Assembly: GCA_021157415.1 (NCBI GenBank)
Contig: JAGGWN010000123.1
Span: 20,006 to 84,005 of the forward strand
DNA: 64,000 bases
Reading direction: 5' to 3'
Source of the DNA: Bacteroidales bacterium
GTDB taxonomy: Bacteria > Bacteroidota > Bacteroidia > Bacteroidales > VadinHA17
A model generated the notes under the pieces. The model saw only the letters and a list, made by a program, of their open reading frames with translations. It was not told the DNA's origin and made no database searches. This document shows positions 1,693-38,576 of the stretch, piece after piece. A program made the translations under genes and the position numbers. Each line of letters begins with the position of its first letter. Position 1 is the stretch's first letter.

Positions 1693-1858
1693 ATTATTTA
1701 TCCCCATTCCGCAATAAAAAACCCAAAACAGTGAGTTTCTAAGTCAGCATTGCTTTCGCGTAGCTTGAGCGGAGCAAAGGAGTTACCCGGGATGGCCTAC
1801 GATCTGTGACTAAAAGATTTTTTCGAAATCTCTGTTGCGCAAACCGGGTTTATCCCTT
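1693..1858 (+). repeat. Dispersed intergenic repeat, copy A
   Basis: About 80-85% identical by eye to the reverse complement of 35852-36074, lacking a 55-nt internal segment. Confidence 0.85.
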
Positions 1859-35009: not shown

Positions 35010-35762
35010 TTGAAATCAGGCCGGAAAGTATATTTTTTTTCTGATTTGCACCTGGGACTGCCGACAGATATTCCGGCAGTAGAGCGGGAGAAAATCGTCG
35101 TCCGCTGGCTCGAGGAAATCAGCGATACGGTGGCTGAACTTTTTGTAGTAGGGGATATTTTCGATTACTGGTTTGAATACAAATATGTCATCCCCAAAGG
35201 ATTCACCCGTTTTCTGGGTAAAATGGCCGAGTTTACCGACCGTGGCATCCCGGTCCATTTTTTCACCGGCAATCATGATGTCTGGATGTTTGACTATTTC
35301 CCGGAAGAATTGGGAATAACCGTACATACCAAACCTTTCATCTATGAACATGCGGGGAAACGTTTTTATATTGCGCACGGGGACGGTTTGGGCCCCGGAG
35401 ATTTGGGATATAAATTCCTGAAGGGAATCTTCAACAACAAAGTACTGCAATGGATGTACAAACGCCTGCATCCCAATTTTGCCACCTGGTTGGCTCACCG
35501 CTGGTCACAAGCCGACCGGGGTGATGAACCTTCCGAATTTATGGGAGAAGAAAAAGAAGCTTTGTTCCGGCATTCCAAAAAAATCCTGACCAACGAATCT
35601 ATTGATTATTTCATTTACGGCCACCGGCACCTGGTACTGGATCATCCGCTCGGCAATACCTCGCGGATCATCTATCTGGGCGACTGGATCACCCTGTTTT
35701 CCTATGCTATTTTTGACGGAAATGACCTGAAATTAAAATATTATAAACCTCGGGATGGGTAA
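35010..35762 (+). CDS. UDP-2,3-diacylglucosamine diphosphatase (LpxH)-like metallophosphatase
   Basis: 'YFFSDLHLGL', 'VVGDIFDYWFEY', 'FFTGNHDVWMFDY', 'YGHRHLVLDHPL'; TTG start. Confidence 0.87.
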   Translation: MKSGRKVYFFSDLHLGLPTDIPAVEREKIVVRWLEEISDTVAELFVVGDIFDYWFEYKYVIPKGFTRFLGKMAEFTDRGIPVHFFTGNHDVWMFDYFPEELGITVHTKPFIYEHAGKRFYIAHGDGLGPGDLGYKFLKGIFNNKVLQWMYKRLHPNFATWLAHRWSQADRGDEPSEFMGEEKEALFRHSKKILTNESIDYFIYGHRHLVLDHPLGNTSRIIYLGDWITLFSYAIFDGNDLKLKYYKPRDG

Positions 35763-35851: not shown

Positions 35852-36074
35852 CCGGAATAAACCCGGTTTGTGCGATAGAGATGTCGAAAAAATCTTCTAT
35901 TGCGCACAGGCCATAGGCCGTACCGGGTTAATCCTTTGCTCCGCTGAAGCTACGCAAAAGCGATGCCGACTTAGGAATTCACTGTTTTGGTGAAAAGCCA
36001 AGACACATGCAATCCTTTGTCGTTCCGCAATAGAAAGCATTTTGGGATTTCTGTTGCGGATTTGGGATAAATAG
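35852..36074 (-). repeat. Dispersed intergenic repeat, copy B (inverted relative to copy A)
   Basis: Reverse complement matches 1693-1858 over nearly its full length, with a 55-nt extra segment (35985-36039). Confidence 0.85.
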
Positions 36075-36098: not shown

Positions 36099-36131
36099 AA
36101 AAAAAAGGCTCCTTTCGGGAGCCTTTTTTTT
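36099..36131 (-). terminator. Bidirectional intrinsic terminator downstream of hppA
   Basis: AAAAAAAGGCTCC-tttc-GGGAGCCTTTTTTTT. Confidence 0.92.
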
Positions 36132-36152: not shown

Positions 36153-38576
36153 CTATTCTTTTTCCTTTTTGATACGCATTCCGTAAAATGATCTGTAGGC
36201 AAAGATCAGGCCGAAGACCAGCATCAAAGCCCCGATCACTACGGTCCAGTCAAATGTGCCGCTACTATGGGCATTCATCCGCATGTGAACAGCGATTTCC
36301 ACAGCCAGCAGACCAAACAAAGTAGAAAATTTAATAATCGGATTCATGGCTACGGAGGATGTGTCTTTGTAAGGATCTCCTACGGTATCTCCAATCACAG
36401 TAGATTCATGCAGGGGCGTTCCCTTTTCCCGGAGATCTACCTCAACAATCTTCTTGGCATTGTCCCAGGCTCCTCCCGCATTGGCCATATAAATGGCCTG
36501 AAAGAGACCGAAAACAGCCAGAGAGATCAGATAGGAAACAAAATAATTGGGATCAAAGAAAGCAAAAGCCAGTGTCAATGAAAAAATTACCGCAAAGATA
36601 TTCCACATTCCGTTCTGTGCATATTTGGTGCAGATCTTTACAACGGATTTCGAATCCTCTATGCTGGATTCCTGGAGATCCAGATTAATGCTCTTTTTGA
36701 TAAAAGCCGTGGCACGGTAAGCTCCTGTGGTAACAGCCTGCAGCGAAGCACCCGTAAACCAATAGATCACCAACCCCCCGGTAATAAACCCGAGGATAAC
36801 CTGTGGATCCAACAATTCAAGCTGCATAAGACCCCGTTTTTTCAACAATAGAATGATCGCAAAGATCATAGTGGTAGCTCCGATCACAGCCGTACCGATC
36901 AAAACGGGCTTGGCCGTTGCCTTGAATGTGTTCCCGGCCGAGTCGTTGGATTCGAGATAGTATTTTCCTTTCTCAAAATCAGGTTTGAAACCGAAATCTT
37001 CCTCAATTTCCTGTTCAATATTATCCAGTTTTTCTATCCGGGAAAGTTCGAATACCGACTGGGCATTATCTGTCACCGGTCCGAAACTGTCAACGGCAAT
37101 CGTCACAGGACCCATCCCCAGAAAACCGAAAGCCACCAGACCAAAAGCAAATACCGTGGGATATATCATAATCCCGTCCAGTCCGAGGGTACTGATAAAA
37201 TAAGCCAACGCCATCAGGATCACGATGGTAATTCCTTCCCAGAAGGCTGAGAAATTTCCGGCGACGAGTCCGGAAAGAATGGTCAGGGAGGCTCCTCCTT
37301 CACGTGAAGCGGTAACGATCTCTTTCACATGGCGCGAGTTGGTAGAAGTAAAGGCTTTGGTCAGTTCCGGAATCAGGGCAGCAGCCAATGTCCCTACACT
37401 AATGATCGTGGAAAGTTTCCACCACATTCCCGTCAGGACCAGTCCGTTGGCAAGCCGTATATCGCCCCCGAGCAGGAAATAACTTACCAGATAAGTACTG
37501 AGAATGGAGATAAAGGAAGTGATCCAGATCAGGGTAGTAAGCGGTGCTTCAAAGTTATAATCCTCTGCTTTCCCATACTTGGCTTTTCCGGCCATATCGT
37601 TGATCCAATAGGATAGAAGAGAGGTAATCACCATCATGATACGCATAACGAAAATCCATACGATCAGGGTAGCCTGAAAATCCGTGCCTACGACAGCCAG
37701 TACGATAAAGGAGATCAGGGCTACGCCGGTAACGCCATAGGTCTCAAAACCGTCGGCGGTAGGACCTACACTGTCACCGGCGTTATCACCGGTACAATCA
37801 GCGATCACTCCCGGGTTTCTCGGGTCATCTTCCGGCAGATTAAATACGATTTTCATCAGGTCGGCTCCGATATCGGCGATCTTGGTAAAGATTCCTCCCG
37901 CCACACGCAGGACACTGGCCCCCAGCGACTCACCGATTGCAAAACCTATAAAACAGGCTCCCGCACTGTCACGAGGGACAAACAGAAGTATAAAGATCAT
38001 CATAAACAACTCGACTGTCACCAGTAAAACCCCCACGCTCATCCCCGACCGCAACGGTATGGAAGTAACTTCCCAGGGATGTTTTTTCAAAGAAGCAAAT
38101 GATGTGCGGCTGTTGGCCAGGGTATTTATCCGGATGCCATACCAGGCAACTCCGTAGGAACCTAAAATACCTATGACGGTCCATAAAATGACCATAAGAA
38201 CCTTTGGAATAGGCATATGGCTCAAACCGAAGAAATAATAAAATATAGCTAAGGCTATGATCCCAAACAAAATCAACAGAAACTTACCTTGTTGCAACAA
38301 ATAGGTCTTGCATGTTTCATAGATAATGCCAGATACATGCAACATGGCCTTGTGAGCCGGGATCTTTTTGATCTTGGCATAGGTCCATATCCCGAAGACC
38401 CATCCGAAAATCACAAAGATCAGCCCGTAAAACAACAGGCTCCATCCGTCAACTCCCCCAAGTTTGGGGAATATACTCTCCCGCATGTTCGGAACATTCA
38501 GATCAGCCTCACTTGCCATTGATAAAAATGGGAAAAATAAAAAGAAAAGCAGGCCTGAGAAAACTTTCTTTTTCAT
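36153..38576 (-). CDS. hppA: Membrane-bound ion-translocating pyrophosphatase
   Basis: '[37 protein letters not shown]' type motif, '[12 protein letters not shown]', '[27 protein letters not shown]'. Confidence 0.96.
   Translation of the reverse strand: [807 protein letters not shown]

Follow-up and report, generated by a model that had tools for sequence, protein, structure and literature searches.

What is the non-coding sequence that stands twice, in inverted orientation and about 34 kb apart, in the 64,000-nt stretch of Bacteroidales DNA analysed here (the window)? The window belongs to a genome available as a 128-contig assembly (G000), which was compared with 60 relatives. A first-pass annotation, made from the letters alone, had proposed a mobile or REP/MITE-like element or a repeated ncRNA. 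We conclude that the repeat is a new MITE family of an already known mobile-element kind. The MITE-like reading was indeed borne out by terminal inverted repeats, 5-bp target site duplications (TSDs), an empty site and a matching IS1380-family insertion sequence (IS). The inverted pair itself was confirmed by alignment and by a repeat finder, whose two longest inverted pairs in the window are 1723-1817/35896-35990 (82%) and 1811-1856/35854-35899 (87%). Its placement between convergent genes was likewise confirmed from the ORFs around copy A (791-1687, +; 1947-2711, -) and copy B (35010-35762, +; 36153-38576, -), although this is not general genome-wide.

Copies, ends and insertion sites

Copy A (1702-1848, + strand) is a 147-nt, internally deleted form of subfamily I, as judged from its alignment with copy B and other copies. 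It is flanked by TTTAT at 1697-1701 and 1849-1853 (both +), the left duplication being recognised from the sequence and the 5-bp rule and the right one from the sequence. Copy B (35862-36066, - strand) is the full-length, 205-nt form of the same subfamily. All of its parts are given on the - strand: hairpin H1 (36024-36060), which holds the left terminal repeat and whose predicted pairs are kept in ~90% of cells; hairpin H2 (35967-36022), with the ACCAAAACAG arm; the H3 module GCATCGCTTTTGCGTAGCTTCAGCGGAGC (35933-35960), defined by alignment and fold and missing from the G003 and G006 copies; and hairpin H4 (35862-35927), which holds the right terminal repeat. H2 and H4 were assigned from the fold and from pair conservation. 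TTTAT stands at 36067-36071 on the H1 side and at 35857-35861 on the H4 side (both -). In the alignment, ~55 nt of copy B, between CCCAAAA and CCAAAACAG, are missing from copy A, a deletion class that is also found in copies L010 and L015.

Two neighbouring features of the window were observed beside these copies. An intrinsic terminator (AAAAAAAGGCTCCCGAAAGGAGCCTTTTTTTT; 36099-36131, -) of the gene at 36153-38576 lies just outside copy B and is kept in G006. A different dispersed repeat, R2 (...TGTAACCGGTTACTCACAGTAAAACTGTTCGTGAGCTCGCTGTGCCCGGTTC...), at 1857-1950, directly adjoins the right TSD of copy A, with ~8 copies in G000, 29 in G006 and 0 in G003. Truncated MITE copies of the window's own genome (L009, L014 and L008) begin or stop beside ...ATTCATGTTCGTTTC, which also follows R2 copies, which may point to insertion of R2-like elements into MITEs or to fusion of the two.

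Searched against its own genome, copy B gave 50 matches at ~40 places, down to degenerate fragments, with a best E of 8e-76 after itself, which excludes a chance match between copies A and B. Among the 60 relatives searched, the family was present at full strength in five of the six further species of the genus; the rest of the taxonomic family held a single 33-nt match to one internal module, in G019, and the other families of the order showed no match to the element. When copy B was searched as DNA against collections of phages and plasmids, no match appeared. The G019 locus (L036), in another genus, consists of the H3 module GCATCGCTTTCGCGTAGCTTCAGCGGAGCAAAG alone, without MITE ends, and this module also occurs in other arrangements (L059, L060, L062, L065 and L052).

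Full-length elements start with CCC and end with GGG; their terminal inverted repeats read CCCAAATTCCGCAATAG / CCCGGTTTGCGCAATAG. Over the outermost 17-18 nt one end is the inverted copy of the other, roughly CCCRRWTTNNGCAATAGA, and the end consensus of the family is CCCRRWTTNNGCAATAG. With at most one mismatch, the terminal pattern CCCRRWTTNCGCAATAGA was found 35 times in G000, 25 times in G003 and 24 times in G006, whereas the reversed pattern, used as a control, gave 0 matches in all 7 genomes. Of 57 elements, 25 had exactly matching 5-bp flanks, whereas random re-pairing gave a mean of 4.7 and never more than 17 over 10,000 trials, and none of the 57 matched at 6-9 bp. These are the elements whose two ends were paired automatically, and both window copies, with a 1-nt change in their ends, fall outside this set. 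For G004 and its near relatives, the corresponding count was 15 of 21 elements (4.7 expected). The duplicated words are mostly WTWAW, such as TTTAT, ATAAA, ATAAT, ATTAA, TTTAA and TTAAA.

The site of copy B reads GTTTATCCCGGAGG in G003 and TTTAT-element-TTTATTCCGGAGG in G000. Around it, G003 has ...TTATCCTG TTTAT CCCGGAGGTGTG, with one TTTAT only, and the window has ...TTGTACTA TTTAT (205 nt) TTTAT TCCGGAGGCGTG; G006 likewise lacks the element at this place. Copy B thus inserted precisely, duplicating 5 bp, and does not stem from a segmental duplication. Empty sites and target duplications in sister strains had been recommended as a check by the first-pass annotation, and the comparison with the sister species G003 provides one such site. 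The same annotation had also advised a search for further copies in this and related genomes, and had named two circumstances that would speak against its reading, namely that only these two copies exist or that the match belongs to a larger segmental duplication; the ~40 places and the homologues in five of six congeneric species exclude the former, and no such duplication was found.

IS1380-type elements as the putative source of movement

The elements are non-coding, 41-206 nt long and without a transposase. An IS1380-family IS of 1560 bp is present in G002 (L119:449-2008), with the ends CCCAGATTACGCATTAGAA / CCCAGATTACGCATTAAAG and a 442-aa transposase that matches NCBIfam NF033539 at 238.8 bits (cut-off 180); the flanks of this copy, TTAAT and TTAAA, are identical at 4 of 5 positions. 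The MITEs and the G002 IS are alike at their ends only. Two G004 contigs end ~120 bp into the same IS, their residues being 100% identical, and the right ends of the G004 MITEs, CCCAGATTACGCATTAGG, are identical over 17 nt to the IS1380 ends of G002 and G004. The genomes compared are fragmented draft assemblies; contig breaks inside an IS are usual for multi-copy ISs, and such ISs are easily lost from fragmented drafts.

Searches of G000 with PF13701 and P0001 gave no match to an IS1380 transposase, and none was found in G003 or G006 either. For these three genomes, where no transposase was found, the IS1380 link is drawn from the end sequences together with the 5-bp rule. Nor did a search of the G000 loci reveal any element of IS size whose ends pair; a 741-bp IS candidate in L104 was rejected, its two ends being unrelated. 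Outside the genus, similar ends were found in an IS1380 element on an Aliarcobacter cibarius plasmid (44% amino acid identity), which sits inside a split transporter gene with the ends CCCAAATTTTTCAATA / CCCGGATTTTGCAATA and the TSD ATAAA. These ends lie within 2-3 mismatches of the G000 and G003 MITE ends and are nearly the two differing ends of the window's subfamily I, and the WTWAW duplication is held in common. Within the IS1380 family, ISEcp1 has the ends CCTAGATTCTACGT / CCTAAATTCCACGT and 5-bp repeats (PMC10101111; PMC2887853), and a direct repeat of 5 is given for IS1247 (PMC3281130).

Taken together, the sequence comparisons make it very likely that the repeat is a MITE family moved in trans by an IS1380-family transposase, a cut-and-paste DDE enzyme. 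We infer that such a transposase would recognise the CCC..GGG ends of the MITEs and cut A/T-only 5-bp WTWAW targets with a 5-nt stagger, so that each insertion would be flanked by 5-bp direct repeats. The IS would since have been lost from the window's genome, leaving the copies as relics that drift apart. In the literature searched, we found no description of MITEs of the IS1380 family.

Unit architecture and age of the family

Two subfamilies were distinguished in G000, namely I (~206, 150, 125 and 51 nt), which includes copies A and B, and II (~162, 110 and 41 nt). Judging from the alignment, the shorter subfamily I forms seem to have arisen by deletion between short direct repeats (CAAAGGATT in the 125-nt form, CCAAAA in copy A). 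A mid-element junction, consisting of GGG (or AGG), 4-6 A/T and CCC, was observed in 34 of 38 full-length elements from four groups, against 0.5-2% expected per element, and a full-length element therefore reads as two CCC-unit-GGG units with a target-like spacer. In copy B this junction, AGGATTAACCC (GGG/AGG, AT-only spacer, CCC), which joins the two units, lies at 35925-35935 (-). Solo 51-nt units with duplications of their own occur at L064, L066, L056 and L038. It is probable that full-length elements are fused dimers, formed when one palindromic unit inserted into, or next to, another unit's WTWAW target; alternatively, the 51-nt forms may be deletion products of dimers. More tentatively, and with somewhat less than even confidence, we suggest that IS1380-type MITEs may form composites in this manner: a unit would repeatedly insert into the WTWAW target copy next to another, after which the fused CCC-unit-GGG-(TTWA)-CCC-unit-GGG would move as one, and this would have occurred independently in three or more subfamilies of a single genus.

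The copies differ in age between genomes. Full-length subfamily I copies in G000 have a mean mutual identity of 81%, those of G003 and G006 are intermediate (91% alike), and those of G004, which carries the IS, are 95% alike. The G000 burst is read as old because no IS1380 transposase was found and the copies are only 81% alike; most likely its driver IS was lost or is missing from the 128-contig assembly. With copies of old, middle and recent date beside a present or lost IS, the genus offers a natural series for MITE birth, dimer fusion and decay. A lone MITE-like end, AATTAACCCAAA(T/A)TC(T/C)GCAATAGAAAAAT, was also observed beside what is apparently the same gene in G001 (L071), G004 (L083) and G005 (L075), and may be an orthologous remnant that predates the divergence of these species.

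Rival readings and known systems

The predicted folds of the elements are strong (z = -4.0 for copy B, -7.6 for L002 and -9.9 for subfamily II), and across 21 aligned copies 88.8% of cells retain the hairpin pairs, compared with ~40% in slid controls, as might be expected if the repeat were a structured RNA, either a small RNA or an element of 3' UTRs, with selection preserving its secondary structure. However, strong folding follows from the elements being chains of palindromes, and covariation in the 21 copies did not exceed that of shuffles (score 0.070 versus 0.066, with 95 of 500 shuffles as high), with 5 double-changed pairs observed against 6.0 expected. The two sides of the hairpins mutate independently, as in a decaying palindromic element and unlike a selected RNA. 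Rfam gave no match at the gathering score, and the sub-threshold matches fall mostly on the neighbouring terminator. The precise TSDs, the empty site and the truncated or deleted copies fit decaying mobile DNA, and copies stand in every gene orientation, so that we consider a selected RNA highly improbable and do not retain the ncRNA proposal of the first-pass annotation. Annotators should be warned that well-folded intergenic repeats here are mobile DNA, not regulatory RNA. Gene context also bears on another reading, in which the repeat would terminate transcription or mark gene boundaries and be retained where convergent genes end. In the window both copies have convergent neighbours and, by rough ORF-based gene calls, so do 17 of the 46 classifiable copies, whereas convergent gaps make up ~18% of the window's intergenic bases; yet 16 copies are co-directional and 13 divergent, and with these 29 of 46 the claim that the repeat is tolerated only in 3' intergenic space proved wrong. 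The gene beside copy B, moreover, already ends in a hairpin-plus-T-run terminator that lies outside the element, and copy B is missing from the sister species. A boundary function is accordingly very unlikely.

Being palindromic, intergenic and of high copy number, the elements also resemble REP/BIME-like palindromes, of the kind that a Y1 tyrosine transposase (RAYT) spreads, and G000 has three Y1_Tnp matches, two of them near element fragments. On inspection, these three genes were IS200-like or broken and none was bracketed by element ends, and they were rejected as a partner. Y1 single-strand transposition is not known to make 5-bp target duplications; these duplications, the CCC..GGG inverted ends and the empty site at copy B all contradict this reading, which we regard as the least credible of those weighed here; the REP part of the first-pass proposal is dropped with it. 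Broken IS200-like Y1 transposase remnants were seen at G000:C7:67344-67469 and C78:319-678 (L051, L049), the C7 remnant interrupting a MITE fragment. A rival closer to the preferred reading is that a different DDE transposase (for example, of IS4 or IS1634 type) with CCC..GGG ends and 5-bp staggers moved the elements, the IS1380 link holding for G002 and G004 only. No IS1380 gene was found in G000, G003 or G006, several positions distinguish the G000 MITE ends from those of the G002 IS, and IS1634 duplications are 5-6 bp. Nevertheless, the Aliarcobacter IS1380 ends are 2-3 mismatches from the G000 and G003 MITE ends and come with the WTWAW duplication, and the target rule and dimer plan of all subfamilies are common to the G004 MITEs, which makes another DDE enzyme unlikely, if less so than the preceding alternatives.

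The preferred reading, a MITE family mobilised by an IS1380-type transposase, can be set beside several known systems. With IS1380 ISs such as IS1247 and ISEcp1, the latter being a main carrier of extended-spectrum beta-lactamase genes, the repeat shares CC(C/T)(A/G)(A/G)ATT-type ends and 5-bp A/T-rich TSDs, and congeners hold a matching IS with an NF033539/PF13701 transposase; it differs in lacking a transposase, in its length of 41-206 nt and in having only the ends in common. MITECca01 of Cardinium, also in Bacteroidota, is similarly an IS-derived MITE (~240 bp) that is of high copy number, mostly intergenic and lineage-specific, whereas its parent belongs to the IS982 family and is intact in the same genome, and the parts of the report consulted do not mention a dimer architecture (PMC9769881). 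The BrickBuilt MITE of Porphyromonas gingivalis is likewise intergenic, from Bacteroidales, modular in its forms and with an empty site between strains, but has IS5-like terminal inverted repeats, inconsistent target duplications and an internal minisatellite (PMC4596501). REP/RAYT elements are palindromic, intergenic and present in many copies as well, but they lack 5-bp duplications and CCC..GGG terminal inverted repeats and need a Y1 transposase, of which none is bracketed by elements here. The CCC..GGG ends and TTAA-like targets of the MITEs also bring to mind the ends and the TTAA target of piggyBac, which is the eukaryotic relative of IS1380. IS1380 has been used as an outgroup of piggyBac (PMC10813416).
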